Of a stretch of 33,487 bases of DNA, positions 1 to 33,487 are shown piece by piece. Both the position numbers and the translations under genes were made by a program. The stretch is from positions 1-33,487 of the IMG/VR virus record IMGVR_UViG_3300033145_000451; one strand, written 5' to 3'. Below the pieces are notes generated by a model. The model was not told the DNA's origin. It ran no database searches and saw only the letters and a list, made by a program, of their open reading frames with translations. The stretch comes from a virus. Each line of letters opens with the position of its first letter. The first letter of the stretch is position 1.

Positions 1-114
1 AGATGATGACTTTAATAGTTATCTCCAGGGGTCAAGTAATGCTTTTTCTGTGATAACTAATAGCACTTCACGTCTGATTGTAGATAATACGGAAGCTGAA
101 TGGGGGTCAGCTTT
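1..114. repeat. Terminal direct repeat, left copy (circular join)
   Basis: These 114 bases are identical to 33374-33487. The reading frame that crosses them matches in both copies (offset 33,373, position 50 corresponds to 33423), so the contig is best read as a circle, or a circularly permuted genome, opened inside a gene. A true packaging terminal repeat is less likely because it would sit inside one long coding frame. Confidence 0.97.
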
Positions 115-1810
115 ACGCGTGGTATGGAAAGATCGTACTGAATTAAGCTCTCCAGCAGATGGTGACTTGAAGATTACTGATGATTTAGGAACTTCGGGCG
201 CAATCCTTGTTGCGAGTGGGGCTGATACACTAACTTTGGAAAAACTGGATTCTACTGATGGAGCCACATTGGGAATGGGTGATTCTGGTATTTTACAATG
301 GGGGGCTGCGAGTATAATTGAATCCGGCCAAGGTCTAATTATCAGCTCAGGGGATATAATGACTATTACTCAGACTGTGGATAATGCTGTAGATGGCGAA
401 GCGATGTTGGTACTTAATAGTGTGGGTGCTGCTGAAATGACTGCTAGTAGTGGCATACAATACGGCATTGATTTGTTGTCTGAAATATTACAGACCAACA
501 CTGCGTCATTTATTGGCTTTCATGTTAACGTAACTGATTCATCAAGTGGGAGCGGACAGGATTACCTAGCGAGTCTTGATTGGGATGGTACGACTATGCT
601 TACGATCACGGATGATGGTGGCCTTCATTTTGAAGGGAATATTTATGATACGAGTCCGACAACAGATGTAGACCCTGATGATAAACTGATCAAGGTAGAA
701 AACAGTTATTCACAAGGGGCGCAAACAGCAGCCGATTTATATTTAGCCGGTGGCATTGATGAGAAATACTGGACTTCAACAGACTTCGCTAATAGTACTG
801 GCGATAAAGTGCAGATTACGGTGGGGCGTTGCAATGCCGGTGTTTGTGCTGAGGCAGCAGTAGAATTTGAGGAGTCAGTAGATTGGGATTGTGATCTTAC
901 ATCTGATATTGTATGCGCTTGCGCTTTATATACCGCAGCATTAGGGAATGTTCCTGGCGTGACTATCGGGCGGCTCGATGGCACTTGTTCTGATGCCAAA
1001 GTCTATGCTCAACCGATTGATGATGAGACATACAGCGTCACTCTGGCAGTAACAGATGATGGAGGTGGAGGCGCAGGCTTAACAGCCACGAATGGAACGG
1101 ATGGAATTTTGAGATTAGTTACAGATAATGTAATTGTAGAGAATGGCAGCGCGCAGACGTTCATTTGTCTTGGTGGAACCACCACTGATGATGCTTGCAT
1201 ACGGTTGGATAGCGGCAACCTAGAGATTCGCGAGGGCGACAATAGTGCCTATTCGAATTTCAATGCGCGAGCTATACAGGCTACGACGGGGCCATTAACC
1301 AATGCGGCAACCGGCGATACGCGATGGAATACCCGGACACGATTATCCTCACCAGCCGATGGCAAATTTAAAATAGATAATAATCTGGAAAATTCCAATG
1401 TCTGTCTGGATGTAACTACAGACGGTGTACTTGCGCTTTATGATGGTGATTGTTCTAGCTCGGCTATATTGACTTTGACAGGGCGCTTACTTGAAGATCA
1501 AGGTGCAGATGTGGCCTCAGCAAATGATTTGACTCTTGGTTTGGATGGTAATAGTTTTGAAATCACAGGTGCAGTACAAATTAATAGAATTTCTAATGTT
1601 GGATGGCAAAATGGGAGTGAAATTACTCTATGGTTTTCTGGTGCGCCTACAGTTAAGCATGGGCAAGCTACTGGTGGCACTGATATAACTGTATTGCTTG
1701 ACCAGGGAAATGATTTTATACCAGCGGCCGGTGATGGAATGTGTTTAAAGTTAGGGGAAATAGGTGGCACTCAGGCTTGGAGAGGATGCGGAGTATATGA
1801 CTTAACATAA
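1..1810 (+). CDS. Giant tail-fibre-like protein, 3' part (continues from 31536)
   Basis: This is the C-terminal half of the reading frame that begins at 31536. Joined across the circle it encodes about 1,215 residues. The frame is open from base 2, and the GTG at base 50 is internal, not a start. The sequence is beta-rich, full of Gly, Asp, Thr and Ser, with short modules such as SSPADGDLKI and SSPADGKFKI recurring about 400 residues apart. A Cys-bearing domain around 784-1056 is a diverged copy of one at 33018-33300. The last 90 residues (from GNSFEITGAVQ to CGVYDLT) look like the beta-structured tip seen at the C terminus of many metagenomic phage fibres. Receptor binding is the likely role. 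The signal peptide at the N terminus (see 31536) is odd for a virion protein. Fibre family is fairly sure; receptor and assembly route are unknown. Confidence 0.85.
   Translation, partial: DDDFNSYLQGSSNAFSVITNSTSRLIVDNTEAEWGSALRVVWKDRTELSSPADGDLKITDDLGTSGAILVASGADTLTLEKLDSTDGATLGMGDSGILQWGAASIIESGQGLIISSGDIMTITQTVDNAVDGEAMLVLNSVGAAEMTASSGIQYGIDLLSEILQTNTASFIGFHVNVTDSSSGSGQDYLASLDWDGTTMLTITDDGGLHFEGNIYDTSPTTDVDPDDKLIKVENSYSQGAQTAADLYLAGGIDEKYWTSTDFANSTGDKVQITVGRCNAGVCAEAAVEFEESVDWDCDLTSDIVCACALYTAALGNVPGVTIGRLDGTCSDAKVYAQPIDDETYSVTLAVTDDGGGGAGLTATNGTDGILRLVTDNVIVENGSAQTFICLGGTTTDDACIRLDSGNLEIREGDNSAYSNFNARAIQATTGPLTNAATGDTRWNTRTRLSSPADGKFKIDNNLENSNVCLDVTTDGVLALYDGDCSSSAILTLTGRLLEDQGADVASANDLTLGLDGNSFEITGAVQINRISNVGWQNGSEITLWFSGAPTVKHGQATGGTDITVLLDQGNDFIPAAGDGMCLKLGEIGGTQAWRGCGVYDLT
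784..1056 (+). repeat. Fibre internal domain, copy 2
   Basis: About 85-90 codons resembling 33018-33300 at the protein level. Shared pattern: TGD, then WDCD, a D-(I/V)-(V/I)-C-x-C-x-LY stretch, GVT, R-x-DGTCSD-x-K, and a closing (T/S)DD. The four Cys positions are conserved. The DNA is strongly diverged, so this is an old domain duplication. Confidence 0.7.
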
Positions 1811-1827
1811 TATTTAATCGTAATTTT

Positions 1828-2643
1828 ATGAGAAATTTATTAAAACAATATCCATTAGCGGTATTTCTAGGTCTGTTATTATTTGCGACAACCGTTTTTG
1901 CGGGTACTTTTTCTGGGTATGCGCTCAAGGATGGGAATGGAGTTGTACTAGATGGAAATGGCGATGCAATAACATCAACCAAAAATGGGGAAATGTTTAT
2001 CTATGAGAATGCAGTTGCAACTACGATAGACGCGACTGAACAATGGCATTTAGGCGGGGGCTTTGAAACCGGGGATGTGGATGGCTGGACTTTTGAGGCT
2101 GCTGAAACCGGGGCAATAGCCTCTTTCGATGATTATAGTGGTACAGTAGCAGGAACAATTAAAGCTGTTGATGTTGAACACGGACTTTCAACCGGGGATG
2201 TTGTGAGTATTACGGGAACTGATATTGAGGTCGGTGACGCAGACAATTATCAAGGAGTGTATGAAATTACGGACATTGATGGGGGTAGTTTTTATTTTAC
2301 TAATGCAAATTGGAACGCAACTCAAACAGCGACATGGAATAAAGGCGCGAATCTTGTAGCTAGCGCAGACTCAGCAGGCATGTATTTAATCAATACTTCG
2401 AACTCCAGTACACCAGAAACGAATAGTGAAACATTCGACTGGAAAGTATACGTCAATGCTACGGCACAAACTGACACAGAGTCGCGTACAAATTCAAAAA
2501 ATGCTACGGAATGGAGTGGCACTAATGCGACTGCCGTAATAACAATAGCTGATGGTGACATTATTTCCGTTGGAGTAAAAAATCTTGATTCTGGTGATGA
2601 TATTACAGTGCGTTATGCAAATGTGAATTTACATAGATTATAA
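1828..2643 (+). CDS. Secreted fibre-like protein with signal peptide and FCCH-like module
   Basis: 271 residues. The N terminus is a classical Sec signal peptide: basic MRNLLKQY, a hydrophobic core LAVFLGLLLFATT, then a VFA-GT cleavage site near residue 26. Residues about 102-165 form a module with HGLSTGD, VVSITG, YQGVYEIT and FYFTN, the pattern annotated in many phage tail proteins as an FCCH-like (ubiquitin-activating enzyme E1) domain. A related module occurs in the tail hub at 9051. The last 70 residues are beta-rich and end in RYANVNLHRL, reminiscent of trimeric jelly-roll receptor-binding heads (inference). It starts 17 bases after the giant fibre stops, without an SD sequence, so the two are probably co-transcribed. 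Likely a fibre partner or surface-exposed adhesin; exact role unknown. Confidence 0.75.
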   Translation: MRNLLKQYPLAVFLGLLLFATTVFAGTFSGYALKDGNGVVLDGNGDAITSTKNGEMFIYENAVATTIDATEQWHLGGGFETGDVDGWTFEAAETGAIASFDDYSGTVAGTIKAVDVEHGLSTGDVVSITGTDIEVGDADNYQGVYEITDIDGGSFYFTNANWNATQTATWNKGANLVASADSAGMYLINTSNSSTPETNSETFDWKVYVNATAQTDTESRTNSKNATEWSGTNATAVITIADGDIISVGVKNLDSGDDITVRYANVNLHRL

Positions 2644-2654
2644 TTATTAAAAAA

Positions 2655-3137
2655 ATGAAGAAATTAAATAAAATTATTTTAGGAATATTCTTAATTTCTA
2701 CATTAATGAATGTTGGATATGCCGAAGGTTTTGGGATGGATGCTAAAATCGATGTTTATGATGCTGGCGAAGTCGCAAAATTTGAAACGAAAAAGGATTA
2801 TATTGTATCGCTTTGGAATCCTGACAATCCAAGTGTTGTATGTAATAATACCATTGCTTTGAGATTTGCCGGAAGGCAAAAATGCTTTACTGAGGCTGGA
2901 TATTCGGAACTGAAAACAGAATTAACAAATGAATTCAAACGTAACAAAACAGAAAAAGAGAAAATGGCAAATGGCAAATATGCAGATATGGATGTCAACT
3001 ATCTGATTCCGTTTTTCGTTGTGCTAAATAAAGAGGTTAGCGCGCGGGGCATGAATTCAATTGACTTTTCGAAGCTCGGTAAAAATCCTATTTTTCGTAT
3101 TATTGTGCGAAGTTATTTAATAAGTTTACTTGGATAA
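2655..3137 (+). CDS. Exported protein of unknown function (signal peptide)
   Basis: 160 residues. A signal peptide is clear: MKKLNKI, hydrophobic ILGIFLISTLMNV, and a GYA-EGF cleavage site near residue 24. The mature part is mixed alpha/beta with two Cys (in VVCNN and QKCFT) about 15 residues apart that could form a disulfide outside the cytoplasm. I do not recognise a family. It follows the exported protein at 1828 by 11 bases and precedes two small membrane genes. It could be a third component of the exported fibre block, a superinfection-exclusion factor, or a lysis accessory protein. Only export is supported by the sequence. Confidence 0.65.
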   Translation: MKKLNKIILGIFLISTLMNVGYAEGFGMDAKIDVYDAGEVAKFETKKDYIVSLWNPDNPSVVCNNTIALRFAGRQKCFTEAGYSELKTELTNEFKRNKTEKEKMANGKYADMDVNYLIPFFVVLNKEVSARGMNSIDFSKLGKNPIFRIIVRSYLISLLG

Positions 3138-3148
3138 TCAAAAAAATC

Positions 3149-3352
3149 ATGGAAAAAATAAAAGACATGCTGGTCGCGATCTTCACTCATAAAAGAATGA
3201 AGTCATTTTATTGGAGAACCTTGGATATGGGAGTAGTAGCATTAGCAGATGTATCAGTACAGATATTCACAGACTTCAATATTCCAAACTGGATTACACT
3301 TGGAGTTGGTTTGGTTCTCGGTGAAATTACAAAGGCTTTAAATAAAAAGTGA
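3149..3352 (+). CDS. Small membrane protein, putative holin
   Basis: 67 residues with a basic N terminus (KDMLVAIFTHKRMKSF) and two apolar stretches, one weak (LDMGVVALADVSVQIF) and one clear (WITLGVGLVLGEI), ending in Lys-rich KALNKK. Size, charge distribution and possible hairpin topology fit small phage holins. The next gene overlaps its TGA stop and is also a membrane protein, as in holin/accessory pairs. The lysin candidate lies about 10 kb downstream at 13643, so this is not a compact lysis cassette. Holin is an inference from topology only. Confidence 0.5.
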   Translation: MEKIKDMLVAIFTHKRMKSFYWRTLDMGVVALADVSVQIFTDFNIPNWITLGVGLVLGEITKALNKK

Positions 3353-3600
3353 TGGGAGAATTCATCAATAAATACTCAATAAAGATTCAATTCGGAATGG
3401 CCATAATTGTCATTGGTACGATCATAAGTACGACTCTATATATCGGAGGTTATTTCAATCAGATAGAATTGAATGAGAATGCGATTGCAAGCCAGAAAAA
3501 CGAGATTATCAAAATCCCTATACTAGAAAATGATCTCTCGAACATGAAGGAAAATATAGGCGAAATAAAAGATGATGTGAAGGAATTATTAAAAAAATAA
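3352..3600 (+). CDS. Membrane-anchored coiled-coil protein (XhlA-like)
   Basis: 82 residues from the ATG at 3352, whose A is the last base of the preceding TGA stop. A GTG one codon earlier is possible. One strong transmembrane segment (IQFGMAIIVIGTIISTTLYI) is followed by a heptad-like helix (ENAIASQKNEI through DDVKELLKK). One membrane helix plus a coiled coil resembles XhlA-type hemolysin accessory proteins or a spanin-like subunit. Being coupled to the putative holin gene supports a role in lysis, but no diagnostic motif is visible. Confidence 0.55.
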   Translation: MGEFINKYSIKIQFGMAIIVIGTIISTTLYIGGYFNQIELNENAIASQKNEIIKIPILENDLSNMKENIGEIKDDVKELLKK

Positions 3601-3601
3601 C

Positions 3602-4171
3602 ATGGCTTTAACTACAGCAGCAGCCGTAAAATCACACCTTGGGATTGTAGGGTCTACTCATGACACTCTACTCGGGAGCCTTGTAACTCAAGTCGATTTA
3701 TTCGTTGAGCTTGAAACAGGAGTAAAAACAGGGGCAGCAAGTGGGAATTTAGATATTACTAATGAAATTGCAGATCACGATGGCTCGCTTACTGTGGTTT
3801 GTAAGCATAAGCCTATAAATTCAGTAACAAAAATTGAGTATAAAATTAGTGTTGATACTTGGGAAGAATACGATGATGAAACAATTGGAAGTGTTGATAC
3901 TCATAAAGAGAAAATCTTTACTCAATATTATGTAACTGGAAAAGGTAAAAGGAATTTACGGCTGACATATAATGCCGGATATATAACTGCTAATGTACCA
4001 GAAGATTTACAGTTATGCGCAATTTTAATTATCGCAACATTGTTTAATCACCGGAATCAGGTTGGATTTGATAATATAAATATACTTGGCTTATCACAAA
4101 CAATGTCAAAGAATGATTATATTTTTATAAAAAAGATTTTAACAAAATATAAAAAATGCTATGCAATATAA
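3602..4171 (+). CDS. Head-tail connector (gp6-like DNA-packaging adaptor)
   Basis: 189 residues. The N terminus (ALTTAAAVKSHLGI, then HDTLLGSLVTQVDLFVE) is the helix pattern of HK97 gp6 / SPP1 gp15-type adaptors, which form the ring under the portal. The middle part with LTVVCKHKPINSVTKIEY and the helix VPEDLQLCAILIIATLFNHR are also typical. It lies directly before the closure and gp10-like genes, the usual order, but is separated from portal and capsid genes by the fibre/export block. The first residues after ATG follow an A-rich leader with no SD. Confidence 0.75.
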   Translation: MALTTAAAVKSHLGIVGSTHDTLLGSLVTQVDLFVELETGVKTGAASGNLDITNEIADHDGSLTVVCKHKPINSVTKIEYKISVDTWEEYDDETIGSVDTHKEKIFTQYYVTGKGKRNLRLTYNAGYITANVPEDLQLCAILIIATLFNHRNQVGFDNINILGLSQTMSKNDYIFIKKILTKYKKCYAI

Positions 4172-12177: not shown

Positions 12178-12466
12178 AAAAGATAATATTAAAATTTCTT
12201 TCGACCCTGACCCGGTTTGGCGAAAGACTAAATTCGGGGCTGGCAAAGATAAGGAGGGGAAAGCTCTGGCAAAAATAATTATCAGAAAAGGGATTACTAT
12301 AATAGAAATTGATGGCAAAAAATATAAGATGAAGGGGAATTTTATAGTTGAAATGCAGAATTTTATGGTACAAAAAAATGCGAAAAAGAAAACTGTAAAA
12401 CGAAAAAATGCGAAAGAAAATATATTGAAATTTTATAACTCTTGTAAGGAATGGCAGACCTCTTAG
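12170..12466 (+). CDS. Small basic protein in the tail-tip operon, unknown function
   Basis: 98 residues, strongly basic, with a short beta part (KIIIRKGITIIEIDGKKYKM) and a C-terminal helix rich in Lys. It overlaps the gene before by eight bases and the gene after by 16, so it is clearly translated as part of the operon. I recognise no family; a tail accessory protein or a chaperone for the next fibre protein are possible. Confidence 0.55.
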   Translation: MLKKDNIKISFDPDPVWRKTKFGAGKDKEGKALAKIIIRKGITIIEIDGKKYKMKGNFIVEMQNFMVQKNAKKKTVKRKNAKENILKFYNSCKEWQTS

Positions 12467-13626
12467 CAAATTCAGCAACTGTTACAGATGGTGATACAAT
12501 CCTGGACGATCATCAAAATAATCTAAGACTAGATATCTTAGAACAGGCTGGGGAATATAGAGATTCAACTGGTGCGGCAGATGCTTATGTTGTGGCTGAC
12601 GATGCTCAAGTTGCTTCTCTACAGGAGGGGCAAATTGTTATTTTCAATGCGAATTTTACAAATGCAGGAGCAATTACCATAAATTATGGGGGCTTTGGCG
12701 CAAAGCCAGGAAAGAAACATAACGATCAGGCTTTAGTGGCAGGGGATATAGAGAGCGGGCAAATTACCGCATGGAGGTATGATGGCACAAACATGCAAAT
12801 GCTCACACCTACAGGGATAGATGGGAAGAATTTGACATTAAAGACAGGAACATTTGGAGAAACGATTGACGGCACAACAACACCGGTTTTGGTTTATTTA
12901 AAAGCAGCTGATGGGAAATGGTATAAGTCAGATGCCGATGCTACGGAATCAACATATAAAACAGAAGGATTTGCCATAAATAGCGGGAATGACACTGATA
13001 TTGCTTTAATTGTTACAGGAGGGATTCTTGGTGGATTCGCCGGAATGACAGAAACAGCAGATCAGTTTGTTAGTGGCACAGCCGGCGAAAGGACTGAAAC
13101 TCCTGGCACTAATAAGCATAAGATCGGGGTTGCCTGGAGTGCGACAGAGATTAAAATTGAATTAGGAAATAAAATGATGGCTGGTGTCCTCACAGACTTA
13201 GATACAGTAAATAATGCCAATAATGACCAGATTATTACTATAGGCTTTAGAGCGAAGATCATCGAGCTTGATTTCTATATACAAGGGCATGATTCCGCTG
13301 TTGCTACAGCACATTTTTATGTTTCAGTAGGAAGAGGAACCTGGGAAGAAACAACACTTATATCTTGGTTCGGGTTCGCTAATCAATCAAATCAGGGGGG
13401 TGCTGGTGATGATCAGGAGCCGCAAGTTTTGTCATTCTTAGATGCGAGTATTGAAACGGCTCCGGCAGCAGGAACGAGTGGGGGTAATGCCTCAGAGAAA
13501 AAAGTGACAATATCAATTCCGACTGTAACTGATACGACCTTCGTTGTGCGACAAGCAACAGCCGGTGGAGCAGACCCCGGAAGTCAATGCCGATCTAGGA
13601 TTGCATGGCGCGTACGGGGATATTAA
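12451..13626 (+). CDS. Tail fibre / tip protein
   Basis: 391 residues. Opens with ADLLANSATVTDGDTILDDH, QNNLRLDIL, the anchor-like start seen in many phage fibres, followed by repeated beta segments (YVVADDAQVASLQEGQIVIF, AITINYGGFGAKPGKKH, TEGFAINSGNDTDIALIVTG) and a Gly/Thr-rich receptor-facing end. Located immediately before the lysin, the usual place for a receptor-binding protein. Unlike the giant fibre at 31536 it has no signal peptide, which makes it the better candidate for the conventional virion fibre. Confidence 0.7.
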   Translation: MADLLANSATVTDGDTILDDHQNNLRLDILEQAGEYRDSTGAADAYVVADDAQVASLQEGQIVIFNANFTNAGAITINYGGFGAKPGKKHNDQALVAGDIESGQITAWRYDGTNMQMLTPTGIDGKNLTLKTGTFGETIDGTTTPVLVYLKAADGKWYKSDADATESTYKTEGFAINSGNDTDIALIVTGGILGGFAGMTETADQFVSGTAGERTETPGTNKHKIGVAWSATEIKIELGNKMMAGVLTDLDTVNNANNDQIITIGFRAKIIELDFYIQGHDSAVATAHFYVSVGRGTWEETTLISWFGFANQSNQGGAGDDQEPQVLSFLDASIETAPAAGTSGGNASEKKVTISIPTVTDTTFVVRQATAGGADPGSQCRSRIAWRVRGY

Positions 13627-13642
13627 AATTTAACTTATTAAA

Positions 13643-14299
13643 ATGATCACACCAATTAAACAATCAGACCCTCGCTGGGCAAATTTTTACATCGGAAATT
13701 CAAGGGCAAAAATGAAGAGATATGGATGTTATATCTCATGTCTATGTATGGCACTAGAGAAATTAAGGGGGTATTTTTGCGACCCGCGTGATGCTGTTAG
13801 ATTTTGGCTTTTCACAGCTCAAGGCAAACTCTCCTCAAAAATGAAGGATTTTAAAGGAATGACTCTTGTTAAAAAGGCTTCATACTATGATAAAAAGGAG
13901 GTCGAGAAATACGCCAATGACCCAGACAAAGCGGCTATCTTAGTCTTAGATAACGGGGCGCATTATGTTTATGTTGAAAATTTCAAGGGAACGACCTTAA
14001 CGCATATTGACCCTATAGATGGTGAGGCTCACACTTATTCATCACGATTAATAACAGGCATGAGGCTACTTGAGAAAAAGGATATTTCAGCCCCAGAGTG
14101 GATGCAGAAATTTATAGAAAAAGTGAAAGAAGCAGGCTTAAAAATTACAGACCCACTTGAGGAAGCAACCATTATAAAAATAGAAGAAATTTTATTTGAT
14201 CTAAAAATCATAGACAAAAAAGAGGGCTGGATTTCTATCGGAAGATGGCTGGTTATTATGGATAAGATTTCTAAATATTGGAAAGACGTGCTAGAATAA
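13643..14299 (+). CDS. C39-like cysteine peptidase, probable endolysin
   Basis: 218 residues. Residues 7-12 QSDPRW, the GCYISCLCMAL helix with candidate nucleophile Cys29, His107 in NGAHYVYV and Asp123 in HIDPIDG give the order Cys-His-Asp of peptidase C39_2 (papain-fold) proteins. The C-terminal 75 residues are helical and may bind cell wall. It ends the late transcription unit, just before a terminator, where phage lysins often lie. Peptidoglycan cross-bridge cleavage is the likely job, but C39 domains also process peptides or are tail-associated, so endolysin is inferred from context. No signal peptide, so it would need a holin. Confidence 0.7.
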   Translation: MITPIKQSDPRWANFYIGNSRAKMKRYGCYISCLCMALEKLRGYFCDPRDAVRFWLFTAQGKLSSKMKDFKGMTLVKKASYYDKKEVEKYANDPDKAAILVLDNGAHYVYVENFKGTTLTHIDPIDGEAHTYSSRLITGMRLLEKKDISAPEWMQKFIEKVKEAGLKITDPLEEATIIKIEEILFDLKIIDKKEGWISIGRWLVIMDKISKYWKDVLE

Positions 14300-20615: not shown

Positions 20616-20810
20616 ATGAAAAAACTATCACTCATCCTGTTAATTCTGTTAATGACAGGGTGTACAACTCGAAGCGATCTACTTAGAAATAAAGAGGCTT
20701 TTACAAAAGAGGCTCGAAAATGTGTAGAGAGTGGAGGGATACCACTCTTCTATTATGAAGAAGGTTCTTTTTCACAGCTAACCTCAATTTCTTGTATTTA
20801 TAGAAAATAA
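20616..20810 (+). CDS. Small lipoprotein
   Basis: 64 residues. KKLSLILLILLMTGC is a clear lipoprotein signal with lipobox LMTGC (Cys15). The mature part is about 50 residues with two further Cys (ECV-like RKCVESGG and SISCIYRK). Phage lipoproteins are often spanin outer subunits or superinfection-exclusion factors such as T5 Llp or TP901-1-type Ltp; here position among early genes suggests exclusion rather than lysis (inference). Confidence 0.65.
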   Translation: MKKLSLILLILLMTGCTTRSDLLRNKEAFTKEARKCVESGGIPLFYYEEGSFSQLTSISCIYRK

Positions 20811-29057: not shown

Positions 29058-30221
29058 ATGGACAAAGAATTAACTGAAAAAGAAAAAGGGAAAGTGTGTT
29101 GTTTTGAAGATTTGATAAGTATTGCAGGCAAAGGGAAAGAAGAAAAAGAAATGACAGACGACCAGAAAAAGAAAGATATTGCAAGAGCCTTGGGGATGGA
29201 GCGTAAAGCCGATGAGGTTTTGTCTACCATCAATAATACAAATTGGTACGATGCTTATGGAATGACCAATGACATCAAAGATTTGACACCGAAATATGGT
29301 AAAGTTTTGGCTCAACTCACTGAGGGATATGAGGGAACTGATCTACCTACCAGCTTTCCAGTACCGTATGACATCACAGATTATTACATGCAGGGAAAAA
29401 GTGAGTGGGAAGATGAGGGTCCACCCGCATTCAACCTCAAAACTCAGACTGATAGTGGTGCAACAATCACTCAAACAACAATGATACTTGAGTTCGGTGT
29501 GAGTGATAGAATGATAAAACACAGTACAGACAAAGGATTATATGAGAAACTTTTAGCAAAATTGACAAAATCGTTGACTAAATCAGTTGAGGGAATGATT
29601 ATCAATGGTGATACCGAAGCTGGTGGAACCGGAAATGTGAATAGTGATGATCAAGCCGCTGCGACAACCTTTGTGGCAGATGGTGGCGCGGCTTACCACG
29701 CGACTTTGCTCGATCATGGAATAAGAGAAAACGCGGTAACAAACTCCAAAACTAGCAATATCGGTGGATTTGATTCTGATGATATGCTTACGGTTGTGAA
29801 AATCTTGGCAGAAAGATACCAAGAGGAATTTGATGATTTGTTATTTATCTCAAATCCTAAAACTCATCTTTCAATGATGGCTGATGATGGATTCAAACTG
29901 GCAACTTCGAGGAGTAAACCAGTCGCGATTGATTCAGGAGTTGTCGATAAACCTTGGAATATTGATTTGGTTGTTTCGCCAGAAATGAAATTGACAGAAG
30001 CGGATGGTAAACTTTCAGGAGGTACACTAACAAACAACGTACTCGGTCAATTCGGGGTTGTTGTGAAAAAAGCGATCAGATGGGGATATGGACAGGACTT
30101 CAAGCTCGAAGTCAATAGAGTACCGGGATATGGGTTCCGCATGGTTGCAACTGTTGAAGTTGGCTTTGTGATACTTGATCTAGCAAACACTTGTGCGCTA
30201 GGAATTAATGTGACAGTGTAA
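29058..30221 (+). CDS. Major capsid protein (HK97 fold)
   Basis: 387 residues. A charged N-terminal helix region (residues 1-60, EKEMTDDQKKKDIARAL) is followed by the coat core: LTEGYEGTDLPTSFPVPYD, ATITQTTMILEFGVSD, KLTKSLTKSVEGMIINGDTE, DDLLFISNPKTHLSMM, and the P-domain/A-loop end RWGYGQDFKLEVNRVPGYGF. This is the HK97-type arrangement in the expected place behind the protease. The protease probably trims the N-terminal region. One Cys pair (VCCFE) occurs at residues 14-15. No scaffold-only gene lies between. Confidence 0.88.
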   Translation: MDKELTEKEKGKVCCFEDLISIAGKGKEEKEMTDDQKKKDIARALGMERKADEVLSTINNTNWYDAYGMTNDIKDLTPKYGKVLAQLTEGYEGTDLPTSFPVPYDITDYYMQGKSEWEDEGPPAFNLKTQTDSGATITQTTMILEFGVSDRMIKHSTDKGLYEKLLAKLTKSLTKSVEGMIINGDTEAGGTGNVNSDDQAAATTFVADGGAAYHATLLDHGIRENAVTNSKTSNIGGFDSDDMLTVVKILAERYQEEFDDLLFISNPKTHLSMMADDGFKLATSRSKPVAIDSGVVDKPWNIDLVVSPEMKLTEADGKLSGGTLTNNVLGQFGVVVKKAIRWGYGQDFKLEVNRVPGYGFRMVATVEVGFVILDLANTCALGINVTV

Positions 30222-30970: not shown

Positions 30971-31528
30971 ATGGGTAGAGAAGGATATACAAAAAAAGGT
31001 AAAGCCCCTGTGGCTTATTTATTCGAAGTTGCACTTGCGGCAACTCCCGAAAGCTTACAGCCAGAATTGATAAATAATACGATTGCTTTGGTAACAGGCG
31101 CGCCAGCCACACTAACAGATACCGGAAACAAATGGCTATTAAAGGGATTCAAAGCCGGGGATAGAATTGAAATATCTGGCTCGACTGCGGATGATGGACA
31201 GTACACTATAGCTACTGTTATTGCTGGCACAATCACTTTAATAACAGGTGACACATTGACAGGTGAAGTAGCCGGAACAAATACACTCACAATCACAAAA
31301 CTTGGTAGGGTCTTTTGTAGAGAAATAACACTTCAAAATATAAAGGGGAATACAAGCGCAGAATTGGCAGTCTCAAGATCACCAGATGTTGATCTAACTA
31401 CAGATTACAGCTTTAAAATAGCAAAATTAAATACTTTGACTTATCATGGCATATATTTAGATGAGCTTTATGTTGACGTTGGCACAAATGCCGACAAGGT
31501 GTATGTCGAATATACTCCCGTCCTTTAA
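30971..31528 (+). CDS. Small virion protein, putative decoration or fibre-anchoring protein
   Basis: 185 residues, mostly beta. It contains a small barrel-like insert (GFKAGDRIEISGSTADDGQY, TIATVIAGTITLITGD) similar to the modules in the tail hub and the exported protein, and a C part with CREITLQNIKGNTSAELAVS and DELYVDVGTNADKVYVEYT. Its start has only seven bases between its stop and the giant fibre start at 31536, so the two are co-transcribed. Decoration of the capsid or an adaptor for the fibre are both possible. Confidence 0.55.
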   Translation: MGREGYTKKGKAPVAYLFEVALAATPESLQPELINNTIALVTGAPATLTDTGNKWLLKGFKAGDRIEISGSTADDGQYTIATVIAGTITLITGDTLTGEVAGTNTLTITKLGRVFCREITLQNIKGNTSAELAVSRSPDVDLTTDYSFKIAKLNTLTYHGIYLDELYVDVGTNADKVYVEYTPVL

Positions 31529-31535
31529 CATAACA

Positions 31536-33487
31536 ATGATGAAAAAACTATTTTTGAGGTTTGCTGTTCTTATTCTAATACTCTTTTCTATAGGGAATGT
31601 TGGCTTTGCTGTAGAATTAAACTCACAGTTAGGCGTGCAAACTTATACGACCTTTGAGGGTACTGCAAACATAGTTCCGACTGACCCCACTTACACTCTC
31701 GGCTCGGCAACAACAGAATGGGCAGATATATTTACCGTTGATCTGCATGTTTCCAATTTATTCTATTTTGCCGGTGCGATGGCTACTGATTTAGATATAG
31801 ATGGGTGGAATATTATAATGGACACAAATGGCGATTTTCTAATTATGAATGATCGTCACGCGTCAGTTGCCGATGACTCTTTCTCTATCGGAAAAACCGG
31901 CGCCCTCGATTTTACCTTTGCAGTTGATGAATTTACTACTTTAACCGGTAGCAATACTACTATTGAGGATGGAACTTTTGATATGGGAACAGCCGCGCTT
32001 AATGCCGGTGTTTTTTCTATGACAGACGGTGATGAAACAGGTGATGACACTTTTATTATAGACTTATCGCATGATGGGGCTGGTGATGTTTCTTTGACGA
32101 CAAGCGATGGCAATGTTGACATTGTTCCGGGGGATGGTGTCGATATTACACTTCCCGCTACTGGTGAGGTGTATATTGATGCGACAACTCTAAGAACTGG
32201 CACTACAGAGGCTTTAAGTATAAATTTTGGTGTAGATACGACAACTCCAACTGATGATGTGGCTGTATTTTCACTGGCACAAACGAGAGTTATTGGAGAC
32301 ACAGGTGGCTCTTATGGAATAGACACCGAAATGGCTTTTGGGAACATGGCCAATGGCGAGTGGAGTTATGTTTTTGGTGGCGATTATTCCTCTTCACAGT
32401 CCACAACCGCAACATCAAATGCCGCATTTTTATATGCGGGAACACCTAGCGCAGTTAGTGCGCAAGTAAATGATTATGGGGTATATGTTGCGAGTGGATA
32501 TGATACGGCTGGTTATTTCGATGGGGGAGTATTAGCGACAGGAGAGGTATTAATTGCAAGCGCAACGCCTTCCGATTTAATCCTAGATAATACGACCACG
32601 GGAGGGGATGCAGATTCTGGCTATGTGACGTGGAGAGGAAATGATGGGGCGGCTGATACCGAACTCGACATGTCGATTTTACTTGATGTGACCACAACTA
32701 CAGATTACAAACTTGGATTTTATAATGATGGGAAAGTAAGCGAGGTCGCTAGCTTAGATGAGAGTGGAAATTTACAAGTTGATGGAGCATTCACACCCGG
32801 CTCAATAATAATGGGTGGCAATCTTGATATGGATGAGAATGACCTTATTAATTTAGATGATATATGGGGCGATGCAATAGCCACGGATGCAGTCCCGCGC
32901 GTAACAGTAATTGGTACACAACCGATTTTTGTTGAGCCAGCAGCGACTAATGTTGTTGGTTCTAATCTTGTACTAGCTCCAAGTCCTGGAGTGCGGACAC
33001 TTGAGGGGGTAACTAAGGCTGGCACAACTGGAGATACGTTGACGTTTGATGTGTATATCAATGGTGTGGTTTCTCAAACAATTAAGACTGAGGGATTAGG
33101 TTCACCCGATGGGTGGGATTGCGATGGTGCTGCGACTGATGTTATTTGCGTCTGCAATCTTTACGATTTACTGGTGGGTGCGGGAGCAATTAATGGTGTG
33201 ACGGTTACGCGAACAGATGGAACATGCAGCGATGAAAAACTTACATTCACGATTACTCCAGGAACTTCGCATTATTTAAGAATGGCTACTTCAGATGATA
33301 CAAACCTAGATATGACAGTGACTATAGCGAATGATGGATTTGTTTTATTGGGGGAAGGGCGGAAGTTGATGTTAGATGATGACTTTAATAGTTATCTCCA
33401 GGGGTCAAGTAATGCTTTTTCTGTGATAACTAATAGCACTTCACGTCTGATTGTAGATAATACGGAAGCTGAATGGGGGTCAGCTTT
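31536..33487 (+). CDS. Giant tail-fibre-like protein, 5' part (continues at 1-1810)
   Basis: The frame is open from ATG 31536 to the end, and continues at the start of the window, about 1,215 residues in total. Start: MMKKLFLRFAVLILILFSIG then NVGFA-VEL, a full Sec signal peptide with cleavage near residue 26. Then TYTLGSATTEWADIFTVDLH, typical of fibre knobs; many repeated Gly/Asp/Thr beta modules; and a domain at 33018-33300 with WDCD and DGTCSDEK that recurs at 784-1056. Such a long beta-fibre at the border of head and tail genes should be a receptor-binding protein. A signal peptide would send it out of the cytoplasm, which conflicts with normal assembly. Confidence 0.85.
   Translation, partial: MMKKLFLRFAVLILILFSIGNVGFAVELNSQLGVQTYTTFEGTANIVPTDPTYTLGSATTEWADIFTVDLHVSNLFYFAGAMATDLDIDGWNIIMDTNGDFLIMNDRHASVADDSFSIGKTGALDFTFAVDEFTTLTGSNTTIEDGTFDMGTAALNAGVFSMTDGDETGDDTFIIDLSHDGAGDVSLTTSDGNVDIVPGDGVDITLPATGEVYIDATTLRTGTTEALSINFGVDTTTPTDDVAVFSLAQTRVIGDTGGSYGIDTEMAFGNMANGEWSYVFGGDYSSSQSTTATSNAAFLYAGTPSAVSAQVNDYGVYVASGYDTAGYFDGGVLATGEVLIASATPSDLILDNTTTGGDADSGYVTWRGNDGAADTELDMSILLDVTTTTDYKLGFYNDGKVSEVASLDESGNLQVDGAFTPGSIIMGGNLDMDENDLINLDDIWGDAIATDAVPRVTVIGTQPIFVEPAATNVVGSNLVLAPSPGVRTLEGVTKAGTTGDTLTFDVYINGVVSQTIKTEGLGSPDGWDCDGAATDVICVCNLYDLLVGAGAINGVTVTRTDGTCSDEKLTFTITPGTSHYLRMATSDDTNLDMTVTIANDGFVLLGEGRKLMLDDDFNSYLQGSSNAFSVITNSTSRLIVDNTEAEWGSA
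33018..33300 (+). repeat. Fibre internal domain, copy 1
   Basis: Protein-level match of about 85-90 residues with 784-1056 (TGD, WDCD, DVICVCNLY, GVTVTRTDGTCSDEK, SDD). The four Cys positions are the same in both. See copy 2. Confidence 0.7.
33374..33487. repeat. Terminal direct repeat, right copy (circular join)
   Basis: Identical to 1-114. The copies cover the same codons of the giant fibre gene in the same frame. Confidence 0.97.

Follow-up and report, generated by a model that had tools for sequence, protein, structure and literature searches.

A giant fibre-like protein with a conserved, predicted Sec signal peptide in a clade of tailed phages

We describe a clade of tailed phages that, at what we judge to be an even chance, builds a giant, disulfide-bonded, Sec-exported fibre outside the cytoplasm, where the protein would either join virions only at lysis or coat the cell and its debris. 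The general assumption is that phage fibres are both produced and put together in the cytoplasm, and the literature searched (most subscription journals being outside its coverage) contained no account of a tailed-phage fibre with conserved Sec export. Our starting point was a 33,487-bp virus record from an uncultured phage, the whole of which we call the window; in it and its relatives we found a conserved predicted signal and cleavage motif, co-located proteins also predicted to be exported, a late operon, and a mosaic fibre body with swappable tips. Export of the fibre via its Sec signal is well supported by these sequence features. For its role we tentatively favour, at slightly under an even chance, a late Sec-exported and probably glycan-binding fibre that acts outside the cytoplasm, most likely masking receptors on the envelope and on debris. 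The evidence parts export from non-export far better than it parts the candidate functions, among them the display, masking, decoy and outside-assembly roles raised in the first-pass annotation.

The joined gene and its predicted signal peptide

The two ends of the window are an exact 114-bp repeat (1-114 = 33374-33487), and the window therefore represents a 33,373-bp circle. Read across this join, the fibre gene is uninterrupted from 31536 to 33487 and onward from 115 to 1810, encoding 1,215 aa from the first ATG or 1,214 aa from the second. Its parts are as follows, with a slash marking predicted cleavage here and below.

31536..33487, + strand: fibre gene, 5' part (residues 1-650), with its start at either of two neighbouring ATGs (31536, 31539); resumes at 115
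1..1810, + strand: fibre gene, 3' part, in which bases 1-114 duplicate 33374-33487; stop at 1808-1810
31539..31610, + strand: predicted signal peptide, 24 codons, cleavage after GFA; N terminus MKKLFLRFAVLILILFSIGNVGFA/VELN
31611..31973, + strand: conserved N-terminal domain of the mature fibre, ~50% identical in L003 and L043 and recognisable in L045, L046, L051 and L052
33120..33227, + strand: four-cysteine module, copy 1 (Cys 528, 537, 539, 563)
890..988, + strand: four-cysteine module, copy 2 (Cys 909, 917, 919, 941)
1448..1807, + strand: C-terminal tip domain, sharing 39% identity with the L051 tip across 114 aa (E 9e-22)

The circular join is supported because the homologous gene is a single unbroken ORF in five relatives (L003, 1414 aa; L043, 1274; L045, 1097; L046, 932; L051, 571), whose products match both halves of the window protein or show both ends of the same architecture. 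A gene straddling the contig ends might suggest a join artefact, or a wrongly chosen start, with the signal belonging to a separate short ORF; but the repeat is exact, the five relatives' ORFs are intact, and in L005 the only ATG, GTG or TTG within the first 76 codons precedes the signal, leaving no start codon 3' of it. We rejected this artefact on these grounds and consider it extremely improbable. In L051, the other start codons within the first 80 codons all lie inside the signal.

The predicted signal has the features of a Sec/SPI substrate: an n-region of the form KK..R with a charge of +3, a hydrophobic core with a mean KD of 3.56 over 9 residues, and small residues at -3 and -1. Under a von Heijne-type rule, GFA/VEL scores 6.5, and 6/2000 same-composition shuffles (0.3%) pass. 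This score is weak alone because the -3 Gly weight of the matrix was loosened (stricter E. coli -3 weights prefer NVG/FA, at 4.9); the cleavage site is settled by the homologues that share it, rather than by the score. The first-pass annotation had read a 1,215-residue protein across the circular join, opening with a Sec signal peptide cleaved at GFA-VEL: the repeat, the open frame and the relatives' unbroken ORFs bear out the former, and the score, the shuffles and the homologues' motif bear out the latter.

As a control, we applied the rule to a 49-kb stretch of E. coli K-12 encoding 45 proteins. Four of the six proteins taken as exported passed, and the other two have an AxA-type site and missed the hydrophobicity cut-off by 0.04-0.07; among the remaining 39, only TolR and TolA were flagged, both of them N-terminal anchors. 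The rule thus cannot tell anchors from cleaved signals, and this, along with the Gly at -3 in the window's own site, would fit an uncleaved hydrophobic segment that tethers the fibre to the inner membrane and never releases it. The core is short, however, with small residues at -3 and -1 and a site that keeps its place in 8/8 lineages, making such an anchor quite improbable. The lipobox Cys at +1 typical of Llp/Cor-type proteins is absent, as every lineage has V, I or A as its first mature residue.

Leader and body among relatives

Relatives were gathered via the protein at the major-capsid position. Among lineages with at least 42% identity in this protein and a sequenced fibre slot, 8/8 (the window itself being the eighth) carry a fibre-like gene with a signal peptide in that slot, and 8/8 share the cleavage motif [GAV]FA/[VIA]; L009, L047 and L050 were left out as they end before the slot is readable. 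The other seven lineages are:

L003/L004/L007/L041: 1414 aa, NTAFA/VGLN
L005: partial, NSAFA/VSLG
L042/L043: 1274 aa, NTAFA/IGLN
L045/L049: 1097 aa, PIVFA/ASSP
L046: 932 aa, GTVFA/ADRT
L051: 571 aa, QTAFA/ALNS (by alignment)
L052: partial, GTAFA/AAPN

The fibre gene is absent from lineages at or below 39% capsid-position identity (L053-L065 and beyond). Across six relative loci, the signal rule flags 9/89 genes of at least 120 aa, and all nine are fibres or exported neighbours in the slot. Comparing leader with mature part, we count 14/24 vs. 23/83 conserved residues between L003 and L005 and 13/24 vs. 13/52 between L051 and L052; the leader is the better conserved in both pairs, indicating that it survives replacement of the body. 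The first-pass annotation had asked whether homologues drop the signal or start downstream of it; they keep it throughout, and the start codons of L005 and L051 agree.

The body itself is mosaic. The window, L003 and L043 are ~50% identical over the first ~145 residues, and residues 150-414 of the window protein match residues 368-624 of L003. Tips fall into two types, one in the window and L051 and the other in L003, L045 and L046 (35-43% identical among themselves). The window fibre is thus nearest L003/L043 at its N terminus and nearest L051 at its tip, implying that tips have been exchanged. The mature protein is very acidic (net charge -133) and contains 16 Cys in close pairs, at 3.5 times the rate of the other structural proteins. 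These paired cysteines would fit an oxidising compartment, and we infer disulfides from their pattern; the relatives' fibres have 0-4 Cys, so that this argument applies to the window protein.

Searches of Pfam, PHROGs, NCBIfam, INPHARED and the PDB returned zero matches to the fibre, and no sugar-binding domain, autotransporter or anchor was recognised in it. When viral contigs were queried with fibre sequences, the 5' half of the window gene found no match, while L003, L045 and an N-terminal profile retrieved only lineages already found; an INPHARED protein search with the fibre halves, L045, L046, the 391-aa tail protein and the second exported protein (both below) also found no match. AlphaFold models of the tip (from five sequences) and of the 271-aa second exported protein (single-sequence) each reached a pLDDT of 40. 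The label "fibre-like" given in the first pass therefore holds for the architecture and lacks a counterpart in any database or structure: as in phage tail fibres and receptor-binding proteins, the protein is long, beta-rich-looking and acidic, with a conserved N-terminal domain, a variable middle and an exchangeable tip, but it differs from them in its Sec signal, in a gene outside the tail module, and in matching no known fibre family.

Signal-bearing proteins also occur beyond the clade. Among terminase relatives outside it, L015:9724-11553 encodes a 609-aa fibre-like signal-peptide protein with VGIGT motifs among structural genes, and L014:17020-17667 encodes a partial signal-peptide protein after a possible adaptor gene, suggesting more than one origin or spread of exported fibres. 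At L087:7683-9821, directly after the match in a distant relative by capsid protein (27%), lie three proteins in a row whose leaders are of lipoprotein type (128, 294 and 282 aa); two of them share a PTPEPTxDLGDIGS-like start.

The late operon and its exported neighbours

In the circle, the fibre gene follows terminase, portal, head morphogenesis and protease/scaffold genes (PHROG matches), then genes for a protein at the capsid position and for 212-aa and 185-aa proteins; after it come two further exported proteins, two small membrane proteins, a head-tail adaptor and the tail genes.

29058..30221, + strand: major capsid protein, assigned by its place behind the terminase, portal, head morphogenesis and protease/scaffold genes; itself unmatched in PHROGs
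30971..31528, + strand: 185-aa head-region protein, weak match to phrog_1236 'head protein' (E 2e-4); 7 bp 5' of the fibre gene
1828..2643, + strand: second exported protein, 271 aa, predicted signal ..TTVFA/GTFS
2655..3137, + strand: third exported protein, 160 aa, signal ..NVGYA/EGFG by eye, scoring below threshold
3149..3352, + strand: small membrane protein whose position and size alone resemble a holin's
3349..3600, + strand: membrane protein with one span and a coiled tail; its holin matches in PHROGs are weak (E 0.05-0.1)
3602..4171, + strand: head-tail adaptor (phrog_442, E 9e-13), bounding the exported block on the right
12451..13626, + strand: fibre-like protein of 391 aa, encoded at the tail module's end, with no signal peptide and no database match

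Intergenic gaps of 7, 17, 11, 11, -4 and 1 bp place the fibre gene inside one late operon. Its place, with the capsid genes ahead and the head-tail adaptor behind, is not that of a tail-fibre gene, which would be expected in the tail module, past the tail hub. The 391-aa protein may be the ordinary tail fibre, a candidate by position only. In two relatives (L052:10753-12264 and L009:11599-13086), the protein preceding the fibre has grown from ~100-185 to ~500 aa via phrog_28344-like repeats.

The exported neighbours recur among relatives. A 247-aa protein after the L046 fibre is a homologue of the window's 271-aa protein (31% over 214 aa), and the second-slot protein of L051 contains CBM_4_9 (28.8 vs. 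a Pfam gathering threshold of 25.9 bits); the window's 271-aa protein falls below the Pfam cut-off for this domain and aligns to the L051 protein at 23%. L003 and L043 each encode a distant homologue of the 160-aa protein after the fibre (132 and 131 aa, respectively), with signals that pass the rule, and the L043 counterpart of the protein at 3349..3600 matches phrog_10340 (E 1.5e-5). In the outgroup L065, a laminin-G lectin without a signal occupies the corresponding slot.

A slot among structural genes also suits a virion part, one that would be exported, fold and trimerise in the periplasm with disulfides, and be joined to heads or tails at or after lysis. Its position between capsid and adaptor in a structural operon, the conserved N-terminal domain with exchanged tips that is the pattern of virion receptor-binding fibres, and the L065 lectin, which could be a capsid decoration, all point this way. 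The neighbours, however, encode exported and holin-like proteins, which points to the envelope or to lysis; furthermore, we know of no tailed phage with a fibre assembled outside the membrane, and the literature searched contained none. We regard a virion part as unlikely, though it is the chief rival to masking.

Next in order, and ahead of the uncleaved anchor, comes an envelope or lysis function, in which the exported block and the membrane proteins would act together as an extended lysis cassette, either loosening the outer layers or regulating lysis. The fibre does adjoin small exported and holin-like membrane genes in lineages mapped far enough, and exported lysis regulators exist, such as T4 antiholin RI, whose Sec signal has been proven cleavable (PMC8385771), although RI is a small lysis regulator otherwise unlike the window fibre. 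Against this, the fibre has no enzymatic domain, and an acidic, mosaic protein of 550-1,400 aa does not resemble the holin, endolysin or spanin components known; elsewhere (13643-14299, by eye only) there is a candidate C39-like peptidase. We consider such a function improbable. Far from the late cluster, at 20616-20810, the window also contains a 64-aa lipoprotein-like ORF with an LLMTGC lipobox and a weak phrog_914 match, possibly outer-spanin-like.

Host clues were sparse. MCP profiles searched against 84,980 species genomes gave one weak match (28%) on a short MAG contig, and no tRNA was found in the window. The window terminase is nearest those of Bacteroidota phages (34-41% identity), which is no more than suggestive of a Bacteroidota host. 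Promoter and terminator scans were near chance, and Shine-Dalgarno-like motifs are rare (6/43 starts). TTAAC, often as TTTAACC, lies 5' of 30/141 starts vs. 8.2 in shuffles (window, L003, L005, L043, L045, L046, L051 and L052), its first base mostly 13-16 nt ahead of the start codon. This excess may partly reflect TAA stops of preceding genes, and could also be a non-SD initiation signal and a host clue.

Candidate role of the exported fibre

Under the masking proposal, SecYEG would carry the fibre out during late infection, signal peptidase would cut it after GFA, and the protein would fold in the periplasm with disulfides. The C-terminal tip, together with the co-exported second protein, might then bind host-envelope sugars, with the fibre remaining on the envelope and spreading at lysis. 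Receptors on the infected cell and on debris would thereby be masked, such that progeny are not lost and further phages are kept out; the exported fibre would be additional to a cytoplasmic tail fibre.

Masking is put forward as most likely by analogy only, the model being phage T5, whose small exported lipoprotein Llp masks the receptor FhuA. Llp and similar superinfection-exclusion proteins are phage-encoded and exported, and mask receptors as proposed for the window fibre; the latter differs in having no lipobox, in reaching 500-1,400 aa across its family, in being fibre-like, and in its place within a structural operon.

The nearest published precedents we found are PblB and ORF22 of Thermobifida phage P1312. 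PblA and PblB of streptococcal phage SM1 are tail proteins that serve as cell-surface adhesins, released at lysis to bind other cells (PMC4508584), and so resemble the window fibre as tail-fibre-type proteins active on cell surfaces outside the virion. S. mitis PblB, however, has no signal peptide and reaches surfaces through lysis, whereas the window fibre has a predicted one; for pneumococcal PblB a signal is predicted, its conservation not being shown (PMC4508584). P1312 ORF22 is likewise a giant exported phage protein, with 1,096 aa, a signal peptide, a phosphatase domain and CBM_4_9, for which the authors propose cell-wall anchoring and superinfection prevention (PMC4569894); unlike the window fibre, it carries an enzyme domain and has not been presented as a fibre conserved within a structural operon. 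In a phage survey, phage DGR target proteins lacked the signal peptides that bacterial ones carry (PMC6199706).

That the leader is kept across eight lineages while the body is swapped suggests selection on export as such. On this view, either parts of the virion can be attached beyond the membrane or fibre-type binders are delivered to the cell surface by these phages at a late stage of infection. If true, tailed phages would have a previously undescribed way of making fibres.
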